Source: Echinarachnius parma (lineage: Eukaryota > Echinodermata > Echinoidea > Clypeasteroida > Echinarachniidae). Taken from it: a DNA stretch of 64,000 nt. Under the pieces are notes generated by a model that ran no database searches, was not told the origin of the DNA, and was given only the letters and a program-made list of their open reading frames with translations. The position numbers and the translations under genes were made by a program. Below are positions 24,629 to 62,462 of this stretch, in pieces (the first letter of the stretch is position 1; each line of letters starts with the position of its first letter). The DNA lies in the NCBI GenBank assembly GCA_037951105.1, contig JBAMJV010008303.1:91001-155000 (forward strand), written 5' to 3'.

Positions 24629-24940
24629 ATGTTAGGAATATCATCTCGGCTCGCGACATCGAACATGCTCACTTCAGCGTTTTCTCGAGTAGAAACCACT
24701 ACCATGGTGACGTTGAAAATGACAACGTGCCTCGAAGACTCAATTAACCATGACAACCAGACGCATGATCGTAACGTCTGTGTCGCTGTACACACGACGA
24801 GTGATCCCGACATCGACTTCCATCAAGGAGACACCGCAGTCGTGGTCGCCGAATCTTTCACGATCACGCTCATCATGGTCGTCGCTATCTTGGCCAATCT
24901 AATTGCCATGGTGACTATCCTTCGCGTGCCGCTGTTGAGG
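24629..24940 (+). CDS. GPCR exon 1 (N-terminus, TM1)
   Basis: Ends in CTG TTG AGG before the GTAAGT donor, phase 0. Confidence 0.75.
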
Positions 24941-27900
24941 GTAAGTTATGACTATATTGTTCCAGATTAAAAATTCCCCTGAAATTAATGGAGAACTTAT
25001 AGTGGAAACTGTCTCAACGATGTTGTATGAGTATAGTGTTTTGAATTAGCAATGTTGTCTTGAGTGTTTTATTATGTCTGTATATAAAACATGATAATCA
25101 CTATGTATAGCATAGTACACAGTAATTATTCGTGTGACCTTCAGACCTTGTGAACATGTAACTCACATTATATTTGAAGAGGAATCCACACATTCTACTT
25201 ATCATTAACCCAACTACCACTGACCTGTGTGTATCGGTCACTTCGATGTTCTCTCGATCACTTTTTGGCGATAGGCTAATGTATGTTTCGTGAGCTGCTT
25301 AAAATAACTCTCGTTTTGGTCATCATTGGCGAAATTGAATTCCAATGAAAAAATTCCCCCCCCCCCCCCCCCCATTATCGTTAAAGATGAAAAAACACAA
25401 CCTTCTGACCACGACTGACCTGTGTATAACGGTCACTGCAGTTATCTCTGTCCTTATTTGTGGATTTGTGCGAGGCGTGCGCAATATTGTTAGTTCTATT
25501 GTTTGTGATGAATGGTTATTTGTATAACCATGCAAATTCAAATAATTGATTTCACACTCAACCTACTTATCATCAACACGACCGCTACTGACCTGTGTAC
25601 AGCGGTCACTTCGACTGTCTCTGTCCATGAAATACATGTTTGCGATGGGCTAGATAATTATTTTTGCGTTATTTTGTTTTTACTTAGATTAGCAGCATAA
25701 ATTAGCACATTCTTGGCAACATTGCATTCAATATAATTAATTTCTTCACGTTGTTTTCAAAGAGGAACCCTCACAACCTTCTCATCCTCAACCTTATCGT
25801 CACGGACCTGTGTATAGCGGTCACTACGATGACTTTCTCCTTGAAATCGATCTTTGATGACGGGCGATTTTTGGAGGGACACGACGGCTGGTGCCAGGTA
25901 AGCAAAATTGGCCGATTTGTTTGATTTATCTGTTTGTTTTTTTTTAATTAAATTTTATATATGTTATTATCATGCATTCCAGCCTTGATTTTATTATATG
26001 GGGCATAATTGTATTTAAATAAAAGCTACATTAATAAAAGTAAAATGAAATTAAGAAAGTGATTATAATATTCAATGACAAATATGTATACAGTTATAAA
26101 GTTAATTTATACGGTATGCGCTGATGATAACTATTGATTGCTAATACACTATCCATCATTCATAATGACATGTAAGGTTTCATGCCGCTTTGGTTCTTGT
26201 GTGCTTATCGTAATGATATATACATGGTTTTACTTTCATAATTGTTTTACAATGTTACTTTGTCTTTTAAATATAACTTGTATCACTTGAATTGAAGATA
26301 TTATTAACTTGAATTTTTGATAGTTTTGAATCGTAAAATACTATAACGTGAAATTCTTCTGAATCAATTGAAAGTTAACACACGTGGATAATTATATAAA
26401 TGTCACAGAGATTATATTGGCGCTATATCCTATTACTATGACACCAATTGTCACAATACATAGTTCATTTCATGACCACATAATTCCAATAATCATGGGT
26501 ACACTTATCCACTAGCGCAATTATGTTACAGTTTTTCGCATTTTGTTGAGGTTTATTGGGTGTAAACTTGCATTTCTTCGTTACTATGCCAGGGTAACAT
26601 TATACTTTCATAATGATAATTATTAAGTTTCGTTTATTTGCATGTTTTGTGAACGATTTTAATTGAAGTTTATTTGTTTGTATATATCTATTTCTTGTAT
26701 TTCTGTATCGACTAAGTTCAACGGATTCTCCGCGGTTGTCCTGGCAACGTCCAGCTTCACAACGATCACCTGCATATCGATCGACCGATACCTTTCGATC
26801 GTCTGGTCGACGCGCTTCCCGCCGAGCTACGCGCGCGCATGCGCAATGATGGCCATCATCTGGTTTTTATCTTCCACTTTTGCCGCCCTCCCTCTCTTCA
26901 AGTTTAATAAGGTATTCAGTGACATAGATGAAGGGGACATTCCCAAGTGTATCGTGAAAATATATATTTGCATCATACTTAGCCCCCCTCACGGGGAGAT
27001 GAAATAAATTTACCTGTAAACCATAACCCCCTTTTATAGCAGACTGCACCGTATGGCATCCTTGTGCACATCACGTCCTATTCTAAGAAATTTTATTATA
27101 TTTTGTGCTTAATTTATATTGATGAATTTTTGTATAATTGTATTTGGGAAAGTTTATGACTCCGTAGTCTATATCATGATTGCATTTTCTATATAAATTA
27201 GCTTGCTAAAATGAAAACAGATTGTAAGTGAAGAGTAGTATAATCGGCTTGTCGTTACTTGTAAGTGTCGTGAATAGACCGCTTATGTATTGATATTATT
27301 GGAAATAAAATTGAAATTGAAAATTCTAATCAATACGAATTGAAAGACAGAAATAAAATGATTAATCTTGTCAGCTTATGGGATAATAAAGGAACAGAAA
27401 AGAAATGAGAAAAAGAGGGGACAACCAGCGACATATAGGGTATAGGTAGTATGAGCGGTTGCAAATAACAAATCAAAAAGAATGTCGTCGAATCAAATTT
27501 AAACCATGAATAGCGACGTGATTCTAAGAAAACACTATGTGGAAAGTGGGTAGTAGATGAGGTAATCCTAAGAAGGACCGACTAATATTCTGTATAAGTC
27601 TTGAAAGAATGATATCCAAATAATTATGCTACATTTCCCCAGTCTTCCTATAAATACCTGAATGAAACGCACCACTGTTCGCCCGACTGGCCGGAGGAGG
27701 GGAACGCGTGCTCCTTCTACGTGGTCGGTTTCGTGATGAACTACGCAGTCACAATCCCGGTCATGACCATCTGCTACTCGGCCATCTTCCGGGCCATCTG
27801 GCTGCGACAGAAGCGACTCGGAAAACATCGTAAGGCAGCTGGAATCAACGCATCTAGCATCAACGAGGTAGGATTATGATCAGAAAAAACACTGAAAAAA

Positions 27901-29805
27901 ATAATAATTGTATTCTTCTATGTTATCCTACACAGCGGCGTAGTGAGGAGGATGACGGGTGGGGGGGGGGGGGGGGGGGGGGGGGGGTGGGGGGGGGGAG
28001 GCTCATGGGGCCCAACCCGCATCATCTGTCAAGTCCGGCAAGTGTATTTCTTTCTTTCTTTATATTTTTGCTTCCTTCAAATCTAAAACAAGCTGAAATC
28101 CCAAAGCTACTGCGGGCCATGGACCCCGCCAGGGTTGCAGAGGTGGGTCCATAAACCCATCCTAAGCGGATCGCAGGTCAGAGTCCCCTTGCAGAAATCC
28201 TGGCTACGCCACTTATCTTATCATTCCATGGCTGCTTCATAATAACAATTGCACCCTGGGTCAGCGTTAACGATTGTCATGAATGATGTAGAGGGCACTG
28301 TCTGAAATGCCACACCACGGTTCAAGTGTGTATTTTGAACATTGCGCAAGGCGTTCGCAAGATGGCACCGGACAAAAGCGAATCAGCAAGGATGTCGATA
28401 TAATTGTCTATGCTTATTAAACATTTAGTTTTTTTCATTTCCTTCTTCTAGTTTTCCGAAGCCACGCCAGCGAACATCAGCGAATCGCACACGGCCTTTA
28501 ACTCGTATTCAGAATCGTGCCAACAGATCCACAGTGCTATTGGCGCGCCGTTCGTGTCTCGAATAGGACTACCATCGAGTGCAACGACCACGAAGCCAGC
28601 AACACAAACCGCCCGGCTATCGACATCATACTCGATGTCCGATATAGACCGCATTGGACTCTCGTCGTCGGACCCGTTAACCTTTAACATCACAGTGGGA
28701 GATCTTTTTTGCATCCCAGAAACTTCTCTACGTAACCATGGAGAAGTTCCACCTTCACCGGAAGTGAGCCACGAGACAGGACTTCAGGGCCACCAGCCCA
28801 CCAGGTCAAAGTCCGAGTTCTCCCTAGCCAGCTGGCGCAGTCAGGACCAGGCAGTTGTCGATGAAAATATCGTGGTCGAGAATGACGACGTGCACGGGTA
28901 CGGGGTCACGTTGGGTGAACGGACGGTACACTTTCAGCGGTTGTCGAGACGGATAACGCATACGAGAAAGCCATCTCGCCGCGATGTCAGGAAGAAGAAG
29001 CGTCGTAAGCGCACGCTCCTGCGGATAAAGAAACTGCGTGCGGACAAACAGGTTGCATTGACAGGTGGGTCTAATGGTAATACTTGTTGGGTATTCCAGC
29101 TAGATTTTTTTTTTTTTTGCTGAAAGAAAATTCGATTGGCTTAACATTTTAAACTTATATCAATTAAGGCTTCTGCCGCTTAATTCAATGTTAACTTTGC
29201 CATCATTTTCATGACATAATACATCCAGCGAAGTCTCACACATTCACCACAACGCACTCCAATCTCATAGTTTATAATTAATTTATAATTACTTTTCATC
29301 AAAATATATAATCGCACATTGTAAATTCCCGTGTCATAATGGTTTTGAGGTGAACGTCTACAAAAGATATAATTAATTATTGAAATACATGTTAATTTTT
29401 CATGCCCGACCATCTGGAATTACTTCCCTGTTTGATCTTTCAATGTATTGAATCATTTGTTGTACAGCTTCGATAAATGAATTCAGCATGGGTTGTCCCA
29501 GTAACATTATATGACTTTTATTCTTGATAATCTTGTTTTATAATCTTCCGACAGGAACATTCTTGATATCATCCAGCGTCATTTGCTGGTTGCCCTACGC
29601 CATCATCCGGTCATGTTTCTTCCCCGTCAAGCATACAAGTCATTGGGTCAGCATTGCAGCCATGTGGCTCGCCTTCGTCAACGCCTGCATCGACCCACTC
29701 ATATACGTCTTCATGAACCGTCGCGCGAAGGCGAGAGTCCGCGCCGACATCAAAGCTCTCAGGCTTTATTTTGGTCAAGTCTTCTCCCGTGCTTCTCACC
29801 GATGA
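24629..29805 (+). CDS. Orphan class A (rhodopsin-like) GPCR, six exons
   Basis: Exons 24629-24940, 25763-25897, 26717-26911, 27643-27867, 28452-29064 and 29555-29805 join in matching phase to give 576 residues. TM1 has ANLIAMV (N1.50), TM2 LNLIVTDLC (D2.50), TM3 starts WCQ (C3.25) and ends in DRY, TM4 has IIWFLSS, TM5 follows a two-Cys second extracellular loop, TM6 has CWLPY and TM7 NACIDPLIY (DPxxY). Position 3.32 is Ala, so the amine-binding Asp is absent. The third intracellular loop is very long (about 240 residues), Ser-rich, and ends in a basic KKKRRKR cluster. The N-terminus has an NQT sequon. Later in-frame ATGs at 24665 and 24701 are alternative starts. The ligand and subfamily are not recognised. 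Confidence 0.85.
25180..25285 (+). pseudogene. Decayed copy A of GPCR exon 2
   Basis: Reads RNPHILLIINPTTTDLC then VSVTSMF in the exon-2 frame, against RNPHNLLILNLIVTDLC and IAVTTMT in the real exon. It has a usable AG before it but no downstream donor, and later residues diverge. Confidence 0.75.
25387..25475 (+). pseudogene. Decayed copy B of GPCR exon 2
   Basis: Reads HNLLTTTDLCITVTAVI, with an internal deletion relative to exon 2. It is preceded by a poly-C run that destroyed the acceptor region. Confidence 0.7.
25552..25655 (+). pseudogene. Decayed copy C of GPCR exon 2
   Basis: Reads TLNLLIINTTATDLCTAV then TSTVSV, in frame with the exon-2 pattern. The 5' boundary and the C-terminal half are lost. 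Confidence 0.72.
25763..25897 (+). CDS. GPCR exon 2 (TM2 to start of TM3)
   Basis: 45 codons, phase 0 at both ends, acceptor ttttcaaag and donor gtaagc. Ends in WCQ, where the Cys is the conserved 3.25 disulphide partner. Confidence 0.8.
26717..26911 (+). CDS. GPCR exon 3 (TM3, DRY, TM4)
   Basis: 65 codons from FNGFSAVV to LFKFNK, phase 0. Acceptor 'gactaag' has a moderate polypyrimidine tract; donor gtattc is weak. Confidence 0.8.
27643..27867 (+). CDS. GPCR exon 4 (second extracellular loop, TM5)
   Basis: 75 codons, acceptor tttccccag and donor gtagga. It carries an NET sequon, two loop cysteines and TM5. Confidence 0.82.
27935..28210. repeat. Poly-G-bearing MITE relic in GPCR intron 4
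   Basis: 'cagcggcgtagtgagg' with a run of about 27 G faces 'tggctacgccactta'. It belongs to the CAGTGGCGTAGC family seen at 14559. Confidence 0.5.
28452..29064 (+). CDS. GPCR exon 5 (long third intracellular loop)
   Basis: 613 bases, phase 0 in and phase 1 out (gacag|gtgggt). Ser/Thr-rich with a strongly basic end just before TM6. Confidence 0.8.
29555..29805 (+). CDS. GPCR exon 6 (TM6, TM7, C-tail)
   Basis: Acceptor ttccgacag. Encodes CWLPY and DPLIY, then a basic helix-8 stretch, and ends in TGA at 29803-29805. Confidence 0.85.
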
Positions 29806-29814
29806 TCAATGATT

Positions 29815-29990
29815 TCAGCCACCACTGGGTCAGCATCGCAGCTATGTGGCTCGCCTTCGTCAACGCCTGCATCGACCCACTCATCTATACGTCTTCATGA
29901 ACCGTCGCGCGAAGGCGAGAGTCCGCGCCAACTTCAAAGCTCTCGGGCGTTATTTTGGTTCAGTCTTCCCTTGTGCTTCTCACCGATGAT
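29815..29990 (+). pseudogene. Tandem copy 2 of the GPCR last exon (frameshifted)
   Basis: Repeats HWVSIAAMWLAFVNACIDPL almost exactly. A 2-base insertion at 'catctata' then shifts the frame and stops it. Confidence 0.85.
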
Positions 29991-29995
29991 CAATG

Positions 29996-30180
29996 CTTTC
30001 AGCCACCACTGGGTCAGCATCGCAGCCATGTGACTCGCCTTCGTCAACGCCTGCATCGACCCACTCATCTAAACGTAATACGTCTTCATGAACTGTCGTG
30101 CGAAGGCGAGAGTCCGTGCCGACTTCAAAGCTCTCGGGCGTTATTTTGGTTCAGTCTTCCCTTGTGCTTCTAGCCGATGA
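29996..30180 (+). pseudogene. Tandem copy 3 of the GPCR last exon (nonsense)
   Basis: The Trp codon of AMW is TGA and the DPLIY region carries an insertion (ctaaacgtaata). Confidence 0.85.
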
Positions 30181-30214
30181 TCGACCGATAATATTATCCC
30201 TTCTTCCTCAATAG

Positions 30215-30342
30215 GCTCGCCTTCGTGGCTCGCCTTCGTCAACGCCTGCATCGACCCACTCATATACGTCTTCATGAACCGTCGCGCCAATGAGAGAGTC
30301 CGGGCCAACTTCAAAGATCTCCAGCGTTATTTTGGTCTATAA
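30215..30342 (+). pseudogene. Tandem copy 4 of the GPCR last exon (open, possible alternative last exon)
   Basis: A strong polypyrimidine tract (tcccttcttcctcaatag) precedes an open 128-base stretch. If joined to exon 5 it keeps phase 1 and encodes WLAFVNACIDPLIYVFMNRR and a short tail to TAA. Such a transcript would lack TM6, so it may be regulatory or merely a relic. Confidence 0.55.
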
Positions 30343-31985
30343 TATATATAGTCTCATCTCGTGTTTCTGGCAGATGATCTTCATGATCGGTGATATCACC
30401 CGTCACCGGGTCCGTGACAGTCATGAAGCTAGTTTTCTTCGGCGGTTGTTTTGACCTATTCATCTGCGCGTTAGTGTGTCACTACGTCGAGGAGAGACGT
30501 AGAGTCCGATTCGATTCGACTTCATATCCGGATCTCCGGCATATTTTTGTATTGCACCTTCTCTAGTGTCTTTGCTGACGATAGATGATCACTTCTTGTT
30601 TGTTCTGTTATATTATCATACCAATGCTTAATCTGGCACTAGAAGAATTATCAGTACTGTAACACACTGAGTACATTTATTTGTTCAATATTAAGATTTT
30701 ATTTCAATATTCACGCGTTCATATCAATTCACCAGTTCACGAGTTCATTAATCCGAAAAGGAAAAGGCGTTCATTATTCCAAAGTTTCTTTTACTATGTG
30801 TGTTAATCCAAATAATGACATGAGGTTCGTTAATATTATGTACATTTTATATAAGATTTAGATGGAATTATCTACCCTTTTTGTTTTCGGAATAACGAAC
30901 GGTCTTCGTAATATCCCATTAAAAAAATGTATAATATGCTTTTAATAATGGTATTTATTCAACACACAAAATGTCATAATTCACAGCTACAAGCTGAATT
31001 GCAGTGGCATAAACAATAAAATGCAACGATATTTACAAACATCAAAATAGCTAGGACGAAATCACGAGGTATAAAGAAATGTCGTTAATATACATACAAT
31101 AATTAGAGAAAGAGATAATAATAATAACACATGGATAATATTACGATTTTGCCGTGAATATTAATGGAAATTGGTAAGTTATATTAACATATTAACATAA
31201 AAGGTAGCAAGTTTCAATTTGTGTTTCAATTAATGCTTATTAAAAATTTTGGGATTAAATTGTATCAATTAATTATAGTGAACTTTTAAACATAATTAAT
31301 TTAAGAATGTACATTATATTAAATATTAAATTGTAACGTCATAATAATATAAATGAGAAAATGTTAATATCCATACACGCATGACATAACGACTACTGGG
31401 CAAGCTGAAGGTTTGCGAAAAATTACATATAAAAGAAGCAGCTATCAATGCTAAATTTAAAAAGGCCCGTATGACAGGCCAAATTAGTTTCGAAAGTTAA
31501 ATGATAGGAAACATAATATGTCACTAAAGGGGACCACCAGGTAAAGAACAACTCATGATTATATGTTTTGGTACCGTTGTGTGATAAGTATAGATGCCCA
31601 GCACTTTGCAAAGGATTGTGTAATTCATGAACTATACAATTAATTACCACCACTTACGGAACCAACATGGCCTCATGGTTCCGTATGCGCCAATTATATT
31701 CACGCATACGTATAAGGAGACAATAAAAAACGTCCTAGACAAAAGGTAGTCTTCGTCTGCAGACCCATGAACATAATGGTGATGCCTTTTCCAACTAATT
31801 ACTTTTTCTGGAAACATATTTTTCGGAACTTGTTGGTGGAATTGACTATTTTTTAGGTGGTGGTATATACCCTTCAAGAATCACTATTGTAGGCAGTCTC
31901 CTGCACCTGTGACACCCGGTAAGCAATCTCTCTGGAATTCTCTCTAAAGTCTGGAAACTAAAATGTTTATTAAGCCTACAAGATT
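30343..31985. other. Non-coding; relic of the TTCGTTATTCCGAAGG family
   Basis: At 30735-30910 degenerate 'gttcattaatccgaaaagg', 'gttcattattccaaag' and 'ttttcggaataacgaacgg' resemble both arms of the foldback element at 38485. The remainder is AT-rich without a gene. Confidence 0.4.
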
Positions 31986-32330
31986 TAGAAAGAGATTCTT
32001 CAATGTCCTGCATACGTAATGCATGGGCAAGATGTTTGCTTTTGTGGAACTATTGAAACGCTACCTGGCGTCTCAAGTGCAGGAAAAGCGTGTTTAGATA
32101 ATAGTCAAGACTCAATTTACACGTTTTTGTTTTCTCCACAATCTTTGCTGAAATTTGGAAATAATTTCTACATGTATATATATGTGAGATTCTTCAATTT
32201 TTCTGACGACATAATGTATCGTCATGTTGCTAGGTAGATCTATACGCGGCATACATAATCAATAGGGTGTAGTGTACAGATCGAGATGAACCTCAATTTC
32301 CACATGTATATATATTATATTTTTTTATGT
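31986..32330 (-). pseudogene. Decayed copies of the IAP RING exon
   Basis: 31992-32150 aligns to the RING exon (gagattcttc; ctacctggcgtctcaagtgcagga; aagcgtgt; cacgttttt), with stops on the minus strand. 32165-32240 repeats the exon's end (ctacatgtatata, gagattcttc, cgacataa), and 32280-32320 repeats its 3' flank. The first two are 194 bp apart. Confidence 0.6.
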
Positions 32331-33182: not shown

Positions 33183-33391
33183 CTACATGTATATACGAAG
33201 AGATTCTTCGATATACTGGCGACATAACGGACACGATGTGAGTCGTTGCGCGCACACCCGACATGTCACCAGATGTCTGCAAGGCAGGAACAGCGTGTCC
33301 AGTGGTCCGTCCAGACATACCTTGCACGTGTTTGTGCCTTGCGAGTTGGCAGGTCCACGGTTCGAGTCCCCAGTGGCGCCCGTGTTGCTTG
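33183..33391 (-). CDS. IAP exon 4 (RING)
   Basis: Acceptor tttatttcag, 2 bases then 69 codons to TAG. All eight C3HC4 ligands are present. Confidence 0.88.
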
Positions 33392-33844
33392 CTGAAATAA
33401 AGTGAAACATTCAATAATATTATTTTGATCTATATTATTGTATATGAAGTTATGTCTTTCTTTCTTACAATTTTCGATAAAAATGTTCATTGTTTTATCT
33501 TTTTTGTATAATGCACGTAGATTTACAAAGTAATAAACTCGAGACTGAATATAAGTAATGATTATTTAATAATTTGTTAATGTATTATACATTATCTTAA
33601 TTAGCCTAATTTCATTATATAAATTACCAGTTGTATCAATTATATACAGCTACTAATGAAAGTGTGTATATAAATTATTACATGTTAACCGTCTGATGGA
33701 GCATAGGGGGTGGGGTTAAGACCTGTCAACCGCCTCCAGGCCCGTAGCCAGGATTTTTCAAGGGGGGGCGTAATTTACAAAACCGGGACCGAGAACGAAC
33801 GTGGCCGAGACCGAGACCACTGTTTGAGAGTCGTGTAAGCACGG

Positions 33845-33887
<43 letters not shown>

Positions 33888-34111: not shown

Positions 34112-36533
34112 GGGTGTGCGTACGCACCCAACGCACCCCCCCCCCCCCCCACCCCCGCCTACGGGCCTGGTCTCCATCCATCCTTTAATACTTACATTCC
34201 TCGCTCTCACATGGCTGAGGCAAGGTGCCAGAGGTGGACTCTGATGGCGATTGTGCTTCGTTGGTAGTCCTATATCCATCAAATTCGTCATCATCATCAT
34301 CATCATCGTCGTCGTCATCATCATCATCATCGTCGTCATCATCATCATCATCATCATCATCCTCCTCTTGTGTCTGCTTGAAAATGAAACACAAATTAAT
34401 CACTTAGTAATGGCTTGGGAAACTAATCAACTCGTTTAACTATTCTATTCATTGAATCAATTAACTGAAGTAGTAATTTGAACTCTTCAATCAGCATAAA
34501 AAGCTTAGTTGAAATCACTTTAGAGTCTCTTCATAATATTCTTGTTAATCATTAATGTCAAGATGAATTGTATTGATATTCCGTGTAATGTCCTTCTAAT
34601 AAAAACAAGATAAATATACATGACCCTCGAATTCGCATTCTTTAATCCGCATTCAAAGCTAAGTCGAAGAGAAACTCTATAATATATTCTGGACGGGTAG
34701 ACCATTAATGACACAATATCAAATATGTTTGATATCATCATTTCTGAAATATATTTCGAATAAAAATACATTTTAAAATCTACGTCCCACATGAAAGCAT
34801 GCCCTCTTTTTCGTGTCACCATCAGCAGTTCCGTAGTGTCTTTCATATTCTTGCCATTGATAAAGTTCACAGTTTTAGGCCAAAATTTTGTAACATCGAT
34901 CTTGGGTATGAGAAAAGTAAAACTGAGGTACTGACATTTAAATTCAAAAGGTTTCTGCTGTTAACTTTGACACCACGTTGTCAATACAAGCACACCATCT
35001 TTTTTTGTTTAGTGAACAAACGATAGGTGGAGTAAACAAATCTAGCCACTAATAATAATGCTATCTAAATAATATTTACTTATGAAAATAAGAATACAAA
35101 ATGATACCGACCATCAAGCGTGGAAGGTTTCTGTTTGATACAACGTCATCAATAAAAGCACGTCCTCTTTTCCGTCTGACCCAGCGGCAGTTCGGGTAGA
35201 GTCTGACGTGTTCTAGCCATGGATCATCTGTGGGTCCCCAATTCTTCATGATGCACCCCGAGTAGAAACACGCAACTCTATCCTCAGGACCTTCATCAAA
35301 AGAACAAAATCGGGGGGTGTTTCACAAAGGTTCGAAGTTAATGATAAAAATTTGTGTTTGAATATGTTCAATTCCAAGAGTACAAACGGCCTATACAGTA
35401 TACCATCATTTTAAGTTCAACTTAGGATGTTAGTTTGACTTAGGATCTTTGTGAAACGCCCCCCCCCCCCCCCCCAGGACAAGTTTTGTTTATAACATTA
35501 TACATTTACATCACCCATTGGTTTCCCCGATGTTTGACTCAGTGATGTTTGAAAACAAAACCCTAGGTCGATCCTTAGAGAAAAGAAAATAGGTCGTAAA
35601 TTAATGCCAGCTCTTCAAAACACAGCTAGTGTGGAAACACTTCCCCATATCACAACGGCTCGTAGCTACGTGTATCTATATTTAAAATGTGTTAACTATA
35701 AATCGGCATAAAGCAAATATCATATTGATGAATAATACATATTTCAAATTACCATGTATAGTCCAACACATGCGCATACCGTTAGACACATGAATACATT
35801 TATATAGTTCATTTTATAATTGTTTTGTTTTTTGTGGAAAAAGTTGCTTTATGACTAAACGGCACGAAAATTAATTGTTATCAACCTTTAGACACATGCG
35901 TACGTTTGTAAACTTATATTTTTGTCCTTTTCGAAATTGTTGATTAATGAATACATGGCCAGTCTGACGCGATCATCAGCGTGATAATGGCAATATAAAA
36001 GGTGGATAATCTAAATACTAACCGATATAGAACAACCCGGCTGATGCCAATAGTGTCGGAGTAGGACCGCTAACTCGCGAATTGAATGAACTTTGTTCCT
36101 CAAGCAGCGACGCGAGTCTTGCGTCTACGTCCGCATAATTCGGATGCGCGCAATTCCTCAATGCCGACGCAGAAGGGGCACTCGTCCTACCCGTGCGTAA
36201 CACACGCGACACGTCCACTACGCAAGAGTTTTTGCTGCTGCTGCTGCTGCGCCCCTCTTCTCCCAGTGGAATGTTCCTGGTGTCTGTGCCAATCAGAAAC
36301 GGGCAGCGGGGGCGATGTTTCCGATGTTCGCCGATTGCCGTATCTCCGACAGCCCAGTTCTTGAGGCGACAGCCGCAAGAGAAGCACTGAGCGCGATCGG
36401 GTAAACCGCCAAAGAAGAATCCCGCTTTCGCGAGGTCGCGGGGAGCGACGGGGTTCCTCTCCGGCCAGGAGTAGAATGTACTGAGACGATATTCCTCGGA
36501 TATCGTCAGGGTATATTCGATGTCGTCTGCCAT
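33183..36533 (-). CDS. Inhibitor of apoptosis protein (BIR-BIR-RING), four exons
   Basis: Exons 36533-36023, 35290-35112, 34376-34196 and 33391-33183 join in phase to 359 residues. BIR1 (about 16-83) has ligands C50, C53, H70 and C77. BIR2 (about 131-210) spans exons 1 and 2 and has C178, H198 and C205, but Ser at 181 where the second zinc Cys belongs, with a Cys two residues later. A linker with a 25-Asp run follows. The C-terminal C3HC4 RING is CKVC…CRHLVTCRVC…CPLC, ending at residue 359. IAPs with this layout bind caspases or IAP antagonists through BIRs and act as E3 ubiquitin ligases through the RING, in the cytosol. Vertebrate XIAP/cIAP have three BIRs and are longer; two-BIR forms are common in invertebrates. 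The unusual donor GTCGGT after exon 2 is the weakest junction. Confidence 0.85.
33700..34175. repeat. Homopolymer-rich DNA in IAP intron 3
   Basis: It has G45 (33842-33886), T20 plus G21 (34067-34110), C14 near 34138, and 'cccgtagccagg'/'cctacgggcctgg' ends. Probably a MITE pair with expanded homopolymers. The low-complexity frames crossing it are not genes. Confidence 0.6.
34196..34376 (-). CDS. IAP exon 3 (poly-Asp linker)
   Basis: Acceptor cattttcaag (or CAG three bases later, same phase) and donor GTAAGT. It encodes TQEE, about 25 Asp, then EFDGYRTTNEAQSP and a Ser/Pro-rich end, phase 1 out. Confidence 0.72.
34285..34361 (-). repeat. In-frame (GAT/GAC)n microsatellite coding for poly-Asp
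   Basis: A trinucleotide array inside IAP exon 3. Length variation would change the acidic linker without shifting the frame. Confidence 0.85.
34778..34845 (-). pseudogene. Decayed copy 2 of IAP exon 2
   Basis: Reads TRKRGHAFMWDV against VRRKRGRAFIDDV in the real exon. DNA match extends through agcagttccgtagtgtct. No BIR ligands remain. Confidence 0.65.
34947..35005 (-). pseudogene. Decayed copy 1 of IAP exon 2
   Basis: The reverse strand matches the end of exon 2 (gtgcttgtattgacaacg and aacagcagaaacc, against gtgcttttattgatgacg and aaacagaaacc). No usable frame remains. Confidence 0.65.
35112..35290 (-). CDS. IAP exon 2 (second half of BIR2)
   Basis: Acceptor ttgatgaag, phase 1 in and 0 out. 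Encodes GPEDRVACFYSGCIMKNW then DDPWLEH and NCRW. Confidence 0.8.
35312..35476. mobile_element. MITE with GTGTTTCACAAAG ends, copy 2
   Basis: 165 bp inside IAP intron 1, from 'cggggggtgtttcacaaagg' to 'ctttgtgaaacgccccc'. A C-run is expanded at the right end. Confidence 0.72.
36023..36533 (-). CDS. IAP exon 1 (BIR1 and first half of BIR2)
   Basis: ATG at 36533. Ends FYIG in phase 1 before donor GTTAGT. Includes a five-Ser run and a GRTSAPSAS linker between the two BIRs. Confidence 0.85.
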
Positions 36534-39395: not shown

Positions 39396-39774
39396 CGTGT
39401 TTCTATGTCATTGATAAGCCGTCATTCGTTTATTTACGTATGACGCAAATGAACATAATGAAGAGAACTTCTTGTTAGATCGATGGCGCGTTGTTCGAGC
39501 TTTCGGTATATGTATATATTTATTTTGATACGTTGACGATTCCATATAATCCTACGAGTCCATTGGGTGGGCGCGGCCGGCTGGGTGTCATGTGTGGGGC
39601 GGAATTCTAGTTTGACTTTCCTGACCAATACACGAAAATAACCATTTGAACAACAAACAATTCTTTTGTTAAATTTCTATCCTTTGAATAAAAAGAGAGA
39701 TGCAATACGAATATAAATAATATTTTCATTTCATGTACCTATAGACCGAACTATCAGTCTCTATTATTATATGT

Positions 39775-40139
39775 GGACGTGGTGTGGCAAGATTGGTAGA
39801 GCGCGTGCCTTCCAATCGTGAGGTCCCGAGTTCGAACCCATGCAGAGTTTTTGATACCCATCGCGTTTTTCCTTCAGCAAGAAACTTATCCACATGTGCT
39901 CCTCTCCACCCAGGTATATACATGGGTACCTGGAAGGATGGAACGTAGTTCCTTAGCATTGTGTGAGCCTTCAAGGTTGCCCGTGGTTGGAATGCTCCCC
40001 AGGGAGCGGAAAACGTGCACTTTGTGTGCTGGATTGATTGCCGAATGTATCCGATGACCGGGGTAATATTATAATTGTTAAGCGCTTAGAGATGATTATC
40101 AATCGTGATAGGCGCTATATAAATCGAGGATCGAGGATA
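39775..40139 (+). mobile_element. tRNA-derived SINE, copy 1
   Basis: Head with box A-like 'ggcaagattggtagagcgcg' and box B 'ggtcccgagttcgaaccc'. The anticodon-loop position reads TTCCAA, as in tRNA-Gly(TCC). A 250-base body and a tail ending 'ggcgctatataaatcgagga' follow. The acceptor arm does not pair, so it is not a tRNA gene. Confidence 0.82.
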
Positions 40140-40649
40140 CAATTCTATCATATTCTGACGGTTGTTCCATTTAGAACGGGGCGATAGTACGGAGTCAGAT
40201 ATACAATAGAAACCCCCACGTAGAGTCGGTTGTTTCGAACTTGTATTATAGGTAACCAACAGTGAAAGTGACTGTCATACCATGATCTTATAATACAATG
40301 TCTTTATTTTTAAGCCAATCCTTTTTATAAGCAGATAGTGGAGCTGTAAAGGTTGATTAAAAAGGTGTCCACATATGTCATTATCCTGAAAAAAAAATCA
40401 TAGTAGGCATATCTTGCTAAATACATGTATATTTAGACCAATAGAGTAATCGCGGATGTGATCTGCATGTGACTCCTTTTGTCCAAATAGAGGTGGGATA
40501 CCTATCATTTATGAACTATGGACTGCATTAATTGTAAGGGATATCTGGGGACTTGCAGACATTAATGATGGATACAGATTCATGGCGTTCATTGTGAACT
40601 CAATCTCGGATGCGTCCGCCGAGTAGTAGTAGTAGTAGTAGTATATATA

Positions 40650-42495
40650 TACAGAGTGTATTAAAAAAATGTTACTCGAAGTTCAAAGGTCAACAATTTA
40701 AAAAGTATATATTTTCGCACTTAAAACCGTAAATAGATGCAAAGAGTCACTATTCAGCTTTAATTTTGTACACTTCCTGAATCAGCAATGTCACGCATTG
40801 CTGAGTTCTTTGTTGTTGAAGATGACAGGTGCGAAGCCCACTTTTTGCAACTTTGGGCTAATGAATGAATTCCTGAAACTAATGGTGCCACACATACATG
40901 TAAATGAACACACCAATATGAACAATTTGTATTTTGTTAATGTTTTCATGGAAGACTGAGTTGTTTGTGGTCGATGTCCTTACCTTATGCACCTACACCT
41001 TCCACGTGTCCTCTTCCCCTGTCAACACACAGTAGACAGCAACGACGCATGTCTTGAACAGCTCGTCTCACCATAGCCGGGTCGTTGCGTAGAACATCCA
41101 CCTCATGTCAAATGCGGTCCTGCAATTCAACGAGATCACGAAGAGGAGATGCAAACACCTTGTTCTTCAAATGTCCCCAAAGGAAGAAATCACAAGGTGT
41201 TAAGTCAGGGGACCTAGGTGGACATTGCACCTCATGATTGAGCGAAATTACTCTTTCCCCAAAGAGGTCATGTATAGTCTATTCTCTGACAGCGACAAGG
41301 CGATGGGCTGGGGCACCGTCTTGGATCCACCATATCTGCCTGAACACTCCTCTCACCTGTCGCTCAAAGTGTTCCTCCAACTGAGGAACAACATCTTCAT
41401 CTATCATCTTTCAAAGAAGAATGGTCCAATCACTTGACCGCTGCCGCAAAGTCCAACCCAAACTGTCCACTTTTGACGACTGAAATTGACATCAAAATTG
41501 TATTCTGGTGGATTCCCGGCCGGCGCATATTGAACAACGATGAAATTTGGCAGGAAATTGACATCACCCTCGGTTCTCGCTACCAGCCATCTGCCAATGG
41601 TTAGCCTTCGTTGGAAGTCTCTAAGCATAAGTTTGTGACGAACATGAATTTTGTATGGATGCATCCGCAAATCCAACTTCGTTATTCTGTAAAGGTCGCT
41701 GATGCAAGTCCAATTCCATTCCGTCTTGCACTGGTGGTCCTATGATGCGCTTCGAGATGTTGCGTAACAGCTTCAATGTTTTGTTCAGTCCTGCCTGTGC
41801 GCCTTCTTCCGGAATTCCCCTTATTTCTGTTCAGGCTAGTTCCATGATGTTGATATTTCCTCACATTGGCCCGGCTTGTATTGCAGATGGAGGATCCCTA
41901 TCAGGGAACTGTTGCCTGAAACCTTCCTTTGTTTGTTGAATGCTTCCAGTTTGGTGAAATGTTGACACCACAAATGTCCTCTGCTCAACTGTGACTTGAT
42001 ACATACTTAATTTTTTTTTCAACTAGCAGCCAAAAACCCCAAAACCTACTCATTCCACTTGATAATTAGTGAAAATGTGTTTTGTTTGTTTTACAGTACA
42101 GCATTGCTTGCCTGAGCTTGCAGTAGTGTTTTGTTTCACATGTCATGTTCAATATCAATGTACTCATTCATGTGTGATATCAGGGAATGTATTAAGCTAA
42201 ACAATTCAGTCCTCTATGAAAACATACAAACAAATGAAACAATACAAATTGTTCCAATTGGTATGTTCACTTATGTGTGGCACCATTAATTTCAGGAATT
42301 CATTCATTAGCACTAAGTTGCAAAAAGTGGGTTTTGCACCTGTCATCTTCAACAACAAAGAACTCAGCAATGCGTGACATTGCTGATTCAGGAAAGGTAT
42401 CAAATGAAAGCTGAATAGTTACCCTTTACATCTATACATAGTTTTAAGTGTGAAAATAATACTTTTTAAATGATTAACACATGAACTTTTTTTAT
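40650..42495 (-). pseudogene. Dead Tc1/mariner-type transposon, copy A
   Basis: It begins TACAGAGTGTAT after a (GTA)n tract. Terminal inverted repeats are about 290 bp (40680-40950 against 42210-42475). The minus strand has fragments of a transposase with stops and frameshifts: an HTH region, an 'WTVWVGLCGSGQVIGPFF' block, 'WIQDGAPAH' and 'PPRSPDLTPCDFFLWGHLK'. These are the DDE-region motifs of this superfamily. The right terminus is eroded. Confidence 0.82.
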
Positions 42496-42528
42496 ACGCC
42501 GAACTATCAGTCTCTATTATTATAATTA

Positions 42529-42890: not shown

Positions 42891-43017
42891 TTCTATTATA
42901 ATTCTGACGGTTGTTCCATTTAGAACGGGGTGGTATAGTAGTACGGAGTCAGATATACAGTAGGAAACCCCACGTAGAGTCGGTTATTCCGAACTAGTAT
43001 TATAGGGAGGTGACACG

Positions 43018-43108
43018 ACATATGCTCCGCCGACATATGCTCCGCCGACAATTGCTCCGAAAAATGCGACAATTGCTCCGCGACAAATGCTCCGCGATAC
43101 TTGCTCCG
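43018..43108. repeat. Short 'cgacannngctccg' tandem repeats at the duplication junction
   Basis: Six or seven imperfect 13-15-bp units (cgacatatgctccgc, cgacaattgctccg, cgacaaatgctccg) fill the gap between units A and B. Confidence 0.75.
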
Positions 43109-45640: not shown

Positions 45641-46030
45641 GTTTTCTATGTCATTGATAAGCCGTCATTCGTTTATTTACGTATAATGACGCAAATGAAC
45701 ATAATGAAGAGAACTTCTTGTTAGATCGATGGCGCGTTGTTCGAGCTTTCGGTATCATGTATATATTTATTTTGATACGTTGACGATTCCATATAATCCA
45801 CGAGTCCATTGGGTGGGCGCGGGCCGGCCGGGTGTCATGGGTGTGGGGCGGAATTCTAGTTTGACTTTCCTGACCAATACACGAAAATAACATTTGAACA
45901 ACAAAACAATCTTTTGTTAAATTGCTATCCTTTGAATAAAAAGGGAGATGCAATACGAATATAAATAATATTTTCATTTCATGTACCTCACTATAGTAGA
46001 CCGCACTACCAGTCTCTATTATTATATGTG

Positions 46031-46378
46031 GGACGTGGTGTGGCAAGATTGGTAGAGCGCGTGCCTTCCAATCGTGAGGTCCCGAGTTCGAAACCCATGC
46101 AGAGTATACCCATCGCGTTTTTTCCTTCAGCAAGAAACTTATCCACATGTGCTCCTCTCCACCCAGGCATGGGTACCCGGAAGGATGGAACGTAGTTCCT
46201 TAGCATTGTGTGAGCCTTCAAGGTTGCCCGTGGTTGGAATGCTCCCCAGGGAGCGGAAAAACGTGCACTTTTGTGTGCTGGATTGATTGCCGAATGTATC
46301 CGATGACCGGGGTAATATTATAATTGTTAAGCGCTTAGAGATGATTTTGGCGCTATATAAATCGAGGATCGAGGATAC
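46031..46378 (+). mobile_element. tRNA-derived SINE, copy 3
   Basis: Unit B counterpart of copy 1. A short deletion removes 'tatcaatcgtgatag' before the tail. Confidence 0.82.
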
Positions 46379-46903
46379 AATTCTATCATATTCTGACGGT
46401 TGTTCCATTTAGAACAGGGCGAAAGTACGGAGTCAGATATACAGTAGGAAACCCCCCACGTAGAGTCGGTTGTTTCGAACTAGTATTATAGGTAACCAAC
46501 AGTGAAATAACCAACAGTGAAAGTGACTGTCATACCATGATCTTATAATACAATGTCTTTATTTTTAAGCCAATCCTTTTTATAAGCAGATAGTGGAGCT
46601 GTAAAGGTTGATTAAAAAGGTGTCCACATATGTCATTATCCTGAAAAAAAAATCATAGTAGGCATATCTTGCTAAATACATGTATATTTAGACCAATAGA
46701 GTAATTTCGGATGTGATCTGCATGTGACTCCTTTTGTCCAAATAGAGGTGGGATACCTATAAACTATGGACTGCATTAATTGGAAGGGATATCTGGGGAC
46801 TTGCAGACATTAATGATGGATACAGATTCATGGCGTTCATTGTGAACTCAATCTCGGATGCGTCCGCCGAGTAGTAGTATTAGTAGTAGTAGTAGTATAT
46901 CTA

Positions 46904-48771
46904 TACAGAGTGTATCAAAAAATGTTACTCGAAGTTCAAAGGTCAACAATTTAAAAAGTATATATTTTCGCACTTAAAACCATAACAAGATGTACAGGGT
47001 CACTATTCAGTTTAATTTGATACCTTTCCTGAATCAGCAATGTCACGCATAGTTCTTTGTTGTTGAAGATGACAGGTGCAAAACCCACTTTTTGCAACTT
47101 TGGGCTTATGAATGAATTCCTGAAACTAATGGTGCCACACATACATGTAAATGAACACACCAATATGAACCATTTGTATTTTGTTAATGTTTTCATGGAG
47201 GACTGAGTTGTTTAGCTTTAAAGTAATATGGATGAGTGGTCGATGTCCTTACCTTATCCACCTACACCTTCCACGTGTCCTCTTCCACTGTCAACACACA
47301 GTAGACAGCAACGACGCATGTCTTGAACAGCTCGTCTCACCATAGCCGGGTCGTTGCGTAGAACATCCACCTCGTGTCGAATGCGGTCCTGCAATTCAAC
47401 GAGATCACGAAGAGGAGATGCAAACACCTTGCTCTTCAAATGTCCCCAAAGGAAGAAATCACAAGGTGTTAAGTCAGGGGACCTAGGTGGACATTCCACC
47501 TCATGATTGAGCGAAATTACTCTTTCCCCAAAGAGGTCATGTATAGTCTATCTCTGACAGCGACAAGGCGATGGGCTGGGGCACCGTCTTGGATCCACCA
47601 GATCTGCCTAAACACTCCTCTCACCTGTCGCTCAAAGTGTTCCTCCAACTGAGGAACAACATCTTCATCTATCATCTTTCAAAGAAGAATGGTCCAATCA
47701 CTTGACCGCTGCCGCAAAGTCCAACCCAAACTGTCCACTTTTGACGACTGAAATTTACATCAAAATTGTATTCTGGTGGATTACCGGCCGGCGCATAATT
47801 GAACAACGATGAAATTTCGCAGGAAATTGACATCACCCCTCGGTTCTCGCTACCAGCCATCTGCCAAAGGCTAGCCTTCGTTGGAAGTCTCTAAGCATAA
47901 GTTTGTGACGAACATGAATTTTGTATGGATGCATCCGCAAATCCAACCTCGTTATTCTGTGAAAGGTCGCTGATGCAAGTCCAATTCCATTCCGTCTTGC
48001 ACTGGTGGTCCTAGGATCCGCTTCGTGATGTTGCCCAACAGCTTCAATGTTTTGTTCAGTCCTGCCTGTGCGCCTTCTTCCGGAATTCCCCTTATTTCTG
48101 TTCAGGCTAGTTCCATGATGTTGATATTTCCTCACATTGGCCCGGATTGTATTTGCAGATGGGGGATCCCTATCAGGGAACTGTTGCCTGAAACCTTCCT
48201 TTGTTTGTTGAATGCTTCCAGTTTGGTGAAATGTTGACACCACAAATGTCCTCTGCTCAACTGTGACTTGATACATTCTTTAATTTTTTTTCAACTAGCA
48301 GCCAAAAACCCCAAAACCTACTCATTCCACTTGATAATTAGTGAAAATGTGTATTTTTGTTTTACAGTGTAGCATTGCTTGCCTGAGCTTGCAGTAGTGT
48401 TTTGTTTCACATGTCATGTTCAATATCAATGTACTCATTCATATGTGATATCAGGGAATGTATTAAGCTAAACAATTCAGTCCTCTATGAAAACATACTA
48501 ACAAATGAAACAATACAAATTGTTCCAATTGGTATGTTCATTTATGTGTGGCACCATTAATTTCAGGAATTCATTCATTAGCACTAAGTTGCAAAAAGTG
48601 GGTTATGCACCTGTCATCTTCAACAACAAAGAACTCAGCAATGCGTGACATCCCTGATTCAGGAAAGGTATCAAATGTAAGCTGAATAGTTACCCTTTAC
48701 ATCTATACATACTTTTAAGTGTGAAAATAATACTTTTTAAATGATTAACACATTGATTGATACGCTCTGTA
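46904..48771 (-). pseudogene. Dead Tc1/mariner-type transposon, copy B
   Basis: 1,868 bp with both termini: TACAGAGTGTATCA on the left and its inverse (tgatacgctctgta) on the right, flanked by TA, plus long inverted repeats of about 290 bp. The minus-strand transposase starts at 48276 with an N-terminal HTH region resembling the DUF4817 type (EQRTFVVSTFHQTGS), is open for 147 residues, then is frameshifted at VARTEG. Later fragments carry GLCGSGQVIGPFFFER and the SPDLTPCDFFLWG motif. It is more complete than copy A but not active. Confidence 0.85.
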
Positions 48772-48807
48772 GTACACCGAACGATCAGTCTCTATTATTA
48801 TACTTAT

Positions 48808-49163
48808 GTGGTGTGGCAAGATTGGTAGAGCGCGTGCCTTCCAATCGTGACGTCCCGAGTTAGAACCCAGAGTATATGCCCATCGCGTTTTTCCCCCAGC
48901 AAGAAAATGTATCTACATTTGCTGCTCTCCACCTAGGTGTATAAATGGGTACCCGAAAGGATGGAACGTAGTTCCTTAGCATTATGTGCGCCTACAAGTT
49001 TGCCCGTGGCTAGAATGCTCCCCAAGGAGTGGAAACGTGCACTTTGTGTGCTGGATTGATTGCAGAATGTATCCGATGACCGGGGTAATAATATAATTGT
49101 AAAACGCTTAGAGATGATTATATCAATCGTGATAGGCGCTATATAAATCGAGGATCGAGGATA
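48808..49163 (+). mobile_element. tRNA-derived SINE, copy 4
   Basis: Unit B counterpart of copy 2. Box B has one change (gagttagaaccc). Confidence 0.8.
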
Positions 49164-49277
49164 AAATTCTATTATATTCTGACGGTTGTTCCATTTAGAA
49201 CGGGGTGGTAGTCCGGAGTCAGATATACAGTAGGAAACCCCACGTAGAGTCGGTTATTCCGAACTAGTATTATAGGG

Positions 49278-49660
49278 AACCAACGGTGAAAGTGACTGTC
49301 ATACCATGATTTTATAATTCAATGTCATTATTCTTTAGCCAACCCTTTTCTAAGCAGATATGTTGAGCTGTAAAGGTTGATTAAAAAGGTGTCCATATGT
49401 CATTATCCTGAAAAAAAATCCTAGTAGGCATATCTTGCTAAATACATGTATATATATATAGACCAATAGAGTAATCTAGAGGTGGGACACCTATGAACTA
49501 TGGACTGCATTGCAAGGGATATTAAGTGTAAAAACTGGGGGACTATTGCAACTGGGGACTATTGCAGACATTAATGATGGATACAGATTCATGGCGTTCA
49601 TTGTGAACTCAATCCCGGATGCATCCGCTGAGTAGTAGTAGTAGTATATATATATCTCTT
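49278..49660. repeat. Third copy of the pre-mariner flank, without the transposon
   Basis: It matches 40256-40650 and 46495-46903 up to the gagtagtagtagta run. The other two copies then enter the mariner element, whereas this one continues 'tatatatatatctc'. It therefore looks like the pre-insertion site. Confidence 0.7.
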
Positions 49661-59759: not shown

Positions 59760-59897
59760 TCAGAACTGGTACCACTTCTTGTCCTTGTACTTCTGCATGA
59801 TTTGGTTAGCCGCCTGCTGGAAGTTCTCAGCGTTGGCCATCATCTGTGCCGTCCTCTCCTCCAACTCGCTCAGCTTCGAACCCCTCTCGTACAGGGC
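59760..59897 (-). CDS. STXBP5: Tomosyn last exon (R-SNARE motif)
   Basis: Acceptor cctcttttcag, 45 codons from ALYERGSK to WYQF plus TGA. Confidence 0.93.
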   Translation of the reverse strand, partial: ALYERGSKLSELEERTAQMMANAENFQQAANQIMQKYKDKKWYQF

Positions 59898-62462
59898 CTG
59901 AAAAGAGGTTAAAGGTTAGGAATTAGAGGTTAAAGATCACTCAGTATCTAGGTCTGAACAGGGGTAAAATTAATGATTTGCTCAGTCGCCTACAGGAAGT
60001 TCTCAGCATTGGCCATCATCCGTGTCGTCCTCTCCTCCAACTCACTCAGCTTCAAACTCCTCTCATAAAGGGCCTGAAAAGGGGGTAAAGGTCAGAGATA
60101 CGAGGAAAGAGGTCAAAGGTCATTCAATGGCTAGGCTGAACTGGGTAAAATTCATTATTTGGTTAGTTGCCTGCTGGAAGTTTTTAACGTTGGCCATGAT
60201 TTGCGCAGTCCCCTCCTCAAGCTCACTCAGCTTCGAACCATTCTCTTTAAAAGGGTTAAAGGTCAGATATAAGAGATAAGAGGTAAACGGCCACTCATTT
60301 TCTTGGTTTGAACAAGGAATTTTAGTTGATTTGGCCGTCATCGGCGCTGTCATCTCCTCAGAACTGCCCTGCTTTGAACCCCTCTCATATAGGGCCTGCA
60401 ACAGAGTCAAAGGTCAGAAACTGGATGTCCCAAGTCCAAGGTCAGGGTCAAACATCAAAGGTCACTTGCTTTCTGGCCCCTCTTGTATAATTAAATATAT
60501 TCTCTCAACATGTTATAGAGAAATACACCCTACACAACTGCCATCAGATAAGAGGTTTGAAGGTCAAAGGTTATATGTAAGAGGTCATTCAAGTTTTTGA
60601 CCCTTACTTATCATGGTCTGTAATGGAAATTAAAACTTGCTAACATAAAGTTTGAGGTTTAACAGAGGTCAAGATTATATTTAGCTTATTATTATCACTA
60701 GTATCCTTTCATTCAACTGTAATATACAAAATATAAAACATACATGCGACACTTCATCATTACATAAACATGGCGTGCCCTTAGTAGTGGCCCTGGTGCT
60801 AATGGTCACCATAAATTTTATTTGGACACTAACAACTCTTGTATTAGTCACCACATTTAGGATCTGCAACACTAAACTCTATGGTGGGAGTCTATTGAAT
60901 GAATTATATTGGCTGCCTGAAAGAAAAGCTTAAAGGGATCTAGTAACTTTGTTGACAAGTGCAAAAAGTGATGAGTGATTAATACAATATGTACTGGTGT
61001 GATCTGATATATCCACAATGTAATGTGTGAACATTTCACGTTAATTGGATGTTTTTTGGCCGAGAAATGAGCAAAAATGCCAAGTGATATTCACTAACTC
61101 ATTGCACTTACTTTGTACACGGCTTAAATTATCCCGTAGACAGTTTAAAATCTGAAAACTTCAATCTTAAATATCTTTTGAACAAAATGGAAATTTGAAA
61201 AACTGAAACCTGTCCCGTGCTTTTATTGTTAATAAGAATATGACAAGGTATGAGAGAAGCACTAGAGTTCCAATTAAGTTATGAGGCTTTGGACAATGTT
61301 ACTAAATCCCTTTAAAGCTGCGTTTCCATTAGAGCAAATTTCCGCGGCAAATTTTTTTTTTCGCAGCGAATTATTGAAAAAATCGGTCTGAGGAGCGATT
61401 AAAATAATTCGCTTGCAAATATTCGCCATGTAATAAGAATAATATATATGAATAATATATGAATAACACTGATTTGGTCCGTGTGAATGTTCGCGGCGGA
61501 AATTCGCAGCGGAAATTCGCTCTAATGGGAACGCAGCTTAAGGGAGAGCTCTGATGAGCAATCGCTTCTTGTGTACAAAATTAAGGAAATACATGAGGAA
61601 TGAGAGAGAGAACTTACGATGCGAGCCTTGGCAACCTCTCCCATTGCTCCTCCTGCCTGGCCTCTCACTCCCTCTAGTCCCCCGGTCCCTGGAATGTGCC
61701 TGGCAACGCTTTTTGAAGGCTTGCCTGCCGTCTCACCGACTGCCAGGAAGAAATACAAATACAAACATCAAATGTCAAATATCAGTTTATTAATACCACT
61801 CACAGTAGGGTTTAGTACAAATTTTAATAGGCTTAGGTCGATGAAGACAATTTATTAAACCTGTTACCTACTAGATCTTGCAATATCCATACAGTTAATA
61901 AAGGACCCACCAAGTTCCTGTAGGCAATGGGTTAATTTCAGTATAAAAAAACAGCAACATATTTTAAGGGCTCGCCTGCCATCTCATCAACTGCAGGGTA
62001 AAAAATATAAATACACTTTTACATTAAATATCAATAGCCTTCACTCAACAATCTAATAAAACTAAAAGGAGGCTTTACTATAAAATGAAGATGATTCAAT
62101 TTCAGTATTAAAAAACAACACATTTTGAAGGCTTGCCTGCCATCTCGCCAACAGCCAGGTAGAAATACAAATATAATAACGTACAGGTACATTGGATATC
62201 AATACCATTTTAGGGTCAGATTTAATCAACATTTAAACAGGTTCAACTAATTCTCTTCTCTTGCCATTTGATTTAGCAATTTTGGTTCAATATACATTCC
62301 CATCCTGTAGAACCATAAGCCGCTTTGGGATACTCACATAGTTCTTCCCTGTCTAGCGCTCCTCCACCCCCTCCGAATAGACCCTTGAAGAAGCCTTTAC
62401 TGGGAGCTTCAGGAGTGTTAACAGGTAAGAACAGATCACCTAGCATGTCGTGAAGGTTCTCG
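59760..62462 (-). CDS. STXBP5: Tomosyn (syntaxin-binding protein 5 family), C-terminal three exons
   Basis: Exons 62462-62338, 61739-61618 and 59897-59760 join in phase (E-E-L-[F]-G-E; A-R-I-A-L-Y) to the last 127 residues. The first has 'LFLPVNTPEAPSKGFFKGLF' and 'DREEL'; the second 'SVARHIPGTGGLEGVRGQAG'; the last is the R-SNARE coiled coil with the central-layer Arg in LSELEERT, ending KYKDKKWYQF. These closely match the C-terminus of tomosyns as I know them. Tomosyn binds syntaxin/SNAP-25 through this motif and restrains vesicle fusion. The full protein is over 1000 residues; the WD40 part lies beyond the window. Whether it is closer to STXBP5 or STXBP5L cannot be told. Confidence 0.93.
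59971..60080 (-). pseudogene. Tandem copy a of the tomosyn SNARE exon (truncated but open)
   Basis: The acceptor (ccccttttcag) is intact and in phase. It reads ALYERSLKLSELEERTTRMM then ANAENFL and stops at TAG, giving a SNARE motif cut to 27 residues. It could be an alternative last exon or a relic. Confidence 0.75.
60150..60257 (-). pseudogene. Tandem copy b of the tomosyn SNARE exon
   Basis: Reads GSKLSELEEGTAQIMANVKN then FQQATNQIM. The 5' end (acceptor and ALYER) is eroded and the central Arg is Gly. Confidence 0.8.
60318..60402 (-). pseudogene. Tandem copy c of the tomosyn SNARE exon
   Basis: Acceptor ctctgttgcag and ALYERGSK are intact, but the heptad sequence has been lost (QGSSEEMTAPMTAK). 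Confidence 0.8.
60930..61315. mobile_element. TTAA-flanked MITE family A, copy 5 (in a tomosyn intron)
   Basis: 386 bp from TTAAAGGGATCTAGTAAC to gttactaaatccctttaa, with the interior inverted relative to 17436. Confidence 0.78.
61312..61541. mobile_element. Second TTAA MITE family, abutting family A
   Basis: Ends AGCTGCGTTTCCATTAGAGC and its inverse (gctctaatgggaacgcagct) are flanked by TTAA. The left TTAA is shared with the preceding element, so one inserted at the border of the other. Confidence 0.75.
61618..61739 (-). CDS. STXBP5: Tomosyn penultimate exon
   Basis: Acceptor tcttcctggcag, donor GTAAGT; phase 1 in, 0 out. Confidence 0.92.
61960..62175 (-). pseudogene. Two short copies of the tomosyn penultimate exon 5' end
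   Basis: 'gctcgcctgccatctcatca' with gcaggg (61973) and 'gcttgcctgccatctcgcc' with caggtagaaatac (62132) copy the acceptor and first ten codons seen at 61718-61756. The rest of the exon is absent. Confidence 0.65.
62338..62462 (-). CDS. STXBP5: Tomosyn antepenultimate exon
   Basis: Acceptor tctattctattccag, donor GTGAGT; phase 2 in, 1 out. Confidence 0.92.

Follow-up and report, generated by a model that had tools for sequence, protein, structure and literature searches.

Low-copy tandem arrays at exon edges in unrelated genes of the echinoderm Echinarachnius parma

Tandem repeats whose unit spans one boundary of an exon are known from amphioxus as mirages. In the amphioxus globin genes, tandem units of 150-160 bp repeat one or the other boundary of an exon, with 6 and 3 units in two haplotypes, and in its accessible part that report considers that mirages may be a general feature of cephalochordates (PMC3087553). 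A further report added PGBD5 as a case and cited Adh and troponin C, again according to its accessible part (PMC3902484).

Three other systems are less close, each compared here as far as the available text of the source describes it. In the potato RdRp case a tandem duplication crosses an intron-exon boundary as well (PMC4974935). In contrast to intron gain of this kind, no new intron in coding sequence was seen here, and the copies are confined to introns already present or to DNA beyond the gene's 3' end. Internal tandem repeats of human segmental duplications, some of them at exon-intron boundaries, share a minisatellite expansion that touches gene structure; unlike here, their units have a mean length of 30 bp, and of the variable repeats half are located in coding sequence (PMC2812944). 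Mutually exclusive tandem exons also arise from local duplication of exon DNA, but those are usable exons and the copies found here are partial, decayed pieces (PMC5896119).

The arrays analyzed in this study share with the amphioxus mirages (Adh3, the globins BflGb6 and BflGb9, troponin C and PGBD5), as presented in the accessible parts of those reports, tandem repeats at one boundary on either side of an exon and a copy number that differs between haplotypes (here, presumed haplotypes). In contrast, the host is an echinoderm and not a cephalochordate, and the periods are about 164-313 bp. A 601-base piece of COX1 is open under five of the six mitochondrial codes tried (tables 4, 5, 9, 13 and 24), which does not distinguish between them, but one AAA at a conserved Asn, several ATA at conserved Ile and AGA at Ser together agree best with table 9, the echinoderm code. 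The AAA evidence is a single site, and another ambulacrarian host may also be compatible with this reading. The GFP family yielded no match, which is in line with a host other than amphioxus but is no proof of it. Among the titles covered by literature searches, none concerned mirages in echinoderms. Here too the unit spans a boundary, both 5' and 3' boundaries are affected, and the composition is unstable between presumed haplotypes. The arrays are very probably mirages: minisatellites of low copy number, each with a unit that crosses a single exon/intron edge or, in the last GPCR exon, the 3' end of the exon.

Exon relics within the window

The window is the whole stretch of 64,000 nucleotides that was analyzed. 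Pfam searches agreed with the gene names given in the first-pass annotation: a GPCR (7tm_1, E 1.8e-40 for the joined protein), an IAP (BIR, E 1.4e-23 and 1.4e-10; RING, E 7e-16) and a gene with a Synaptobrevin-type SNARE. The latter, with a reading frame that continues across exons x, y and z, we take to be tomosyn, as that annotation did. Decayed copies of individual exons had been described beside the real exon in all three genes. Such copies exist and their spacings were mostly right, but none of those examined is a whole exon (Table 1).

Table 1. Real exons and relics in the window (positions of the window)
Feature	Position	Strand	Evidence
GPCR exon 2, real and complete (7tm_1 protein)	25763..25897	+	Pfam, tblastn
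Three relics, acceptor side of GPCR exon 2 (~25180, 25396, 25560)	25163..25660	+	
GPCR last exon (E6), real, with stop codon	29555..29805	+	
Three relic copies: 3' part of last GPCR exon, stop and downstream DNA, period 182-195	29823..30337	+	
Two short RING-like relics	31976..32214	-	31976-32010 E 0.012, 32168-32214 E 8e-5 (DNA); 0.002 (protein)
Weak relics, 3' part of IAP exon 2 (edge covered: putative)	34791..35005	-	
IAP exon 2, real, encoding the second half of a BIR; ends assigned by eye	35115..35290	-	Pfam BIR E 1.4e-10
Tomosyn SNARE exon (z), real, last exon	59760..59897	-	Pfam Synaptobrevin E 1.2e-7
Relics: acceptor side of SNARE exon with intron flank, period ~176	59898..60428	-	
Tomosyn second-last exon (y), real	61618..61739	-	
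Two relics, acceptor side of second-last tomosyn exon, ~164 apart	61934..62204	-	

All relics of GPCR exon 2 lie upstream of the real exon at 25763, and their spacings of 195, 173 and 215 bp were reproduced via a shared GACCTGTGT motif. The region of this exon was located at two places in the assembly. The array of the last GPCR exon was recovered at 29641-30337 with a period of 182-184 bp and 3.7 copies. Within this array copies c2 and c3 were 91.8% identical to each other and 86.9% and 80.8% identical to the real copy, and there are stops or frame breaks among the copies.

The tomosyn SNARE array was found at 59796-60428 as previously noted, with a period of 176 bp, three relics and exon starts 176, 181 and 141 bp apart. 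A fourth good array, at the second-last exon (61703-62204), had been overlooked. Here the relics were 75% identical to each other and 63-68% identical to the real exon. The SNARE array shows the reverse of this array and of the last GPCR exon, since relic a was 81.7% identical to the real exon but 74.7% identical to relic b. Relic a is broken by a stop or frame break. In each good array the similarity is beyond chance, with best self-BLAST E values from 7e-9 to 3e-172. A GAA/GAG-rich array of 1.1 kb (62569-63703) adjoins the tomosyn exons; it is ~80-86% identical to the other haplotype.

The IAP relics were less distinct. Among the copies of exon 2, the relic at 34791-34861 was recovered (75% over 73 bp, E 3e-8), but the middle one at ~35000 was seen by eye only. 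The RING relics are present and ~192 bp apart, but they are short, and 1 kb separates them from the RING exon (33183-33391), beside which they had been placed. A partial BIR copy is located at 43082-43321, its protein being 89% identical to the first IAP exon. Furthermore, the window contains two similar segments (39740-43006 and 45991-49646) with direct repeats of ~0.5-0.9 kb near both ends; judged by eye, their ORFs resemble transposases.

One-edge units in the window and in other genes

Ten arrays from this and other genes were read at the DNA level, nine of them clear and one weak (IAP exon 2). Six are acceptor-side arrays: GPCR exon 2, tomosyn z, tomosyn y, a kinase here presumed to be CHK2-like from its motif, the 5' part of the kinesin array on contig C12482, and the kinesin on C1406. 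Two are clearly donor-side (the 3' part on C12482 and the kinesin on C4289), so that one kinesin exon carries arrays of both kinds. The weak array of IAP exon 2 is probably donor-side. In the last GPCR exon the unit spans the 3' end of the exon, which is not a splice edge. Altogether, a splice edge was clearly spanned in eight of the ten arrays. Acceptor-side units are located upstream of the complete exon and donor-side units downstream of it.

No unit with both splice sites and the full exon was found in the ten arrays. Duplication of whole exons was therefore rejected, as the units cover one exon edge only. According to a simple geometric estimate, the chance of finding no whole-exon unit among ten without any filter is P 0.05 to 0.46, depending on the assumed unit and exon lengths. 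The result is thus only mildly unexpected by chance; it fits selection and is no proof of it. With only one edge included in a unit, a functional edge is left to the complete exon, and normal splicing may be retained.

To survey other genes, profile tables for six families were drawn from the assembly of 1.2 Gb. They comprised 758 matches (kinase 138, kinesin 134, myosin 82, PTP 154, p450 100, Ras 150) and are less sensitive than self-alignment of DNA. Loci were tallied by eye if at least two matches to the same profile region were found on one strand within 1 kb. At least 13 loci were counted: four kinase, five kinesin, one myosin and three Ras loci, with no exon-relic pair in the p450 table and none among the PTP matches listed. 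Merging three presumed allele pairs leaves at least 10 loci. The Ras tally leaves out C2717 and C5856, which are ambiguous and carry stops, and a pair on C2822 whose members are separated by slightly more than 1 kb. The DNA was checked at six of the 13 loci, or four once allele pairs are merged; these had been chosen because pairs were seen in them, and all were tandem.

The expectation that the same kind of event would be found in unrelated genes was thus borne out at the DNA level for kinesins and the CHK2-like kinase, and in profile tables only for Ras and myosin. In the kinesins on C4289 and C1406 the exon part of the copies is 92-93% alike and the spacers barely align. This contrast is greater than simple neutral drift predicts.

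Drift, turnover and the tandem-repeat background

Contig C316 was taken as the other haplotype of the window. It is collinear and ~96% identical in the GPCR and tomosyn parts, and the IAP and transposon-like part between them is rearranged. C316 also carries ~10 kb of extra DNA at window position ~33751-33762, between the RING and the acidic IAP exons. No indels of at least 8 bp between the window and C316 were found inside the GPCR or SNARE arrays. Introns differ by 1.4-3.5% between the haplotypes with the exception of the E5-E6 stretch, which is near-identical in both and therefore uninformative on drift.

The relics of GPCR exon 2 differed at 4/105, 2/88 and 2/92 sites (2.2-3.8%; 8/285 sites in total), and for tomosyn relics a and b the difference was 3-4% (7/199 sites). 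These relics diverge about like introns (2-4%), as judged from few sites. Tomosyn relic c showed 0/67 differences and the relics of exon y 0/31 and 1/35. The real exons were not uniformly slower than the relics, with differences of 5.2% in GPCR exon 2 and 4.5% in E4. Since this is so and some relics have no or one difference, the argument for drift depends on a small number of sites.

The tomosyn array is present on four contigs: that of the window (C8290), C316 (98%), C464 (97%) and, in part, C6220. Four contigs with this array at 97-100% are more than two haplotypes would give; candidate explanations are DNA from two or more individuals, a segmental duplication and an assembly left uncollapsed. 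On C6220, which we take as a haplotype and which may be a near-identical duplicate, the order is a truncated relic c (the oldest relic), relic a, an extra copy, and the real exon. The exon part of the extra copy is identical to the real one, and the exon part of relic b is absent. Except for a 3-base difference, the junction of the extra copy is that between relic a and the real unit. As this junction pre-existed, it points to unequal exchange between units. Array composition therefore varies between contigs taken as haplotypes, both in tomosyn (C6220 and the window) and in kinesin (C12482 and C1423, taken as alleles).

Such arrays have to be seen against the tandem repeats of the genome in general. 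Self-alignment with the low-complexity filter on, E up to 1e-4 and offsets of 50-1000 bp gave 21 tandem clusters in the window. With these settings the weak IAP and RING relics fell outside the clusters. In 17 random stretches, all from contigs over 20 kb, 34 clusters were found in 143.7 kb, or 2.4 per 10 kb. When segments of 150 bp were compared with their surroundings at offsets of 100-600 bp, a tandem copy spanning 60 bp or more was present for 312 of 2495 random segments (12.5%; from stretches longer than 1500 bases) and for 125 of 1119 within the window (11.2%).

If only spliced genes are considered, four clusters touch exons (those of GPCR exon 2, the last GPCR exon, and the SNARE and second-last exons of tomosyn), which compares with 3.0 expected (P 0.35, window). 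In total, six of the 21 clusters touch exons in the window and 4.8 were expected (P 0.32 with circular shifts and 0.33 with clusters placed freely; 16 annotated exons of 7806 bp, exon 2 being one base too long). Specificity for exons, as implied by the first-pass annotation, was consequently not borne out in the window, and the lack of enrichment there matches, on the scale of the window, the genome-wide outcome which that annotation had named as speaking against its proposal. As a class, the exon-edge arrays do not exceed the background of tandem repeats in the window.

Two arrays are located inside coding ORFs and have periods of 54 and 117 bp, both multiples of 3. One is an 18-aa tandem repeat (QFNGPNMKRDLFARTPSD type; 5009-5835, TRF period 54) near the N-terminus of a single-exon ORF of 1158 aa (2480-5956, minus strand) that resembles a Toll-like receptor, with LRR followed by TIR by eye. 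The other (14898-15246, plus strand) is a repeat of 39 aa (offset 117) within an ORF of 342 aa.

Period, alternative readings and probable origin

The period of each array is about 164 to 313 bp and mostly 165-215 bp. For comparison with the background 16 exon arrays were entered by hand with one value each, six of them from profile tables only. One value was used since the spacings within one array are not independent, and the twelve spacings originally listed thus represent about five arrays. Six of the 16 spacings were divisible by 3, about the chance level.

The recurrence of spacings near 140-215 bp had originally been linked, tentatively, to nucleosome-size units. In such a process slippage or re-replication would duplicate roughly the length of a nucleosome repeat (150-200 bp), preferentially at nucleosome-bearing exons. 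A tendency of this kind exists: the exon arrays have a median spacing of 190 bp and 13/16 lie within 140-215 bp, compared with 10/34 random arrays (Fisher P 0.0008; 0.00002 once 15 non-exonic window arrays join the background). For periods of 130-350 bp the median is 190 bp in exon arrays and 155 bp in the background (P 0.002; 0.009 with the window arrays), so exon arrays tend to longer periods than background arrays. Several background arrays have periods of 137-172 bp as well, and most satellite units are reported, in the accessible part of one source, to be of nucleosomal length or 5-10 bp (PMC8122249). However, within 150-350 bp, taken as the range where an exon relic is recognizable, the share in the 140-215 bp band is similar (13/16 and 8/10; 8/12 with the window arrays), with medians of 190 bp for exon arrays and 164 bp for the background (P 0.025; 0.19 with the window arrays). 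A relic found by profile needs an estimated ~100 bp of exon plus the splice flank, which sets a floor near 150 bp and explains the lower bound on the period of exon arrays. The periods also range from 164 to 313 bp between arrays, and exons were not enriched in the window. Nucleosome-sized copying is not needed to explain the exon-edge copies, and we regard it as an unlikely source of them.

It is more improbable still that the copies are functional tandem exons, used as alternative or mutually exclusive exons. Some do keep an open frame and an acceptor (the CHK2-like L029/L030 and the extra copy on C6220), and the copy in the kinesin on C4289 is 92% alike with differences that are mostly synonymous by eye. 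Against this, no examined copy in the ten arrays has both splice sites and a full exon, several are broken by stops or frame breaks (copies of the last GPCR exon, tomosyn relic a), and the divergence of the exon-2 relics between haplotypes is intron-like. Slightly harder still to credit is an origin from mobile satellite or Helitron-like elements with captured exon pieces. Tandem repeats are dense here, as the 34 clusters of the random stretches illustrate, and satellite-like arrays of oyster ride on Helentrons according to the accessible part of one report (PMC7492417). The copy counts, with the GPCR exon-2 region at two places and the tomosyn array on four contigs (97-98%), fit instead the own gene locus together with haplotypes or near-identical duplicates.

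If the arrays are mirages, as we think very probable, their founding mutations would be tandem duplications of ~100-300 bp, which are common in this genome. Where the unit holds only an acceptor, splicing to the distal copy would still yield a normal mRNA; where it holds only a donor, splicing from the proximal copy would do so. Splicing of the host mRNA would then be undisturbed, and with a normal mRNA such a duplication would be tolerated and its incomplete copies could drift. Selection would act as a filter on the duplications. Unequal exchange or slippage between copies would add and remove units at the founding spacing, the direction of gain or loss being putative.

Mirages appear to reach an echinoderm. 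It is a tentative idea, and one we would hold rather improbable at present, that exon-edge minisatellites form a pervasive and still active mutational regime in the genome of an echinoderm, beyond the cephalochordates for which they were named, and a standing pool of spare splice sites for new introns or exon variants with a unit near one nucleosome repeat. For annotators these arrays are a warning not to assume that a decayed piece of an exon next to the real one is an alternative exon. Mirages in several unrelated echinoderm genes, with a number of units that differs by contig, would widen their known range and would give a natural system for watching the model of intron gain by duplication.
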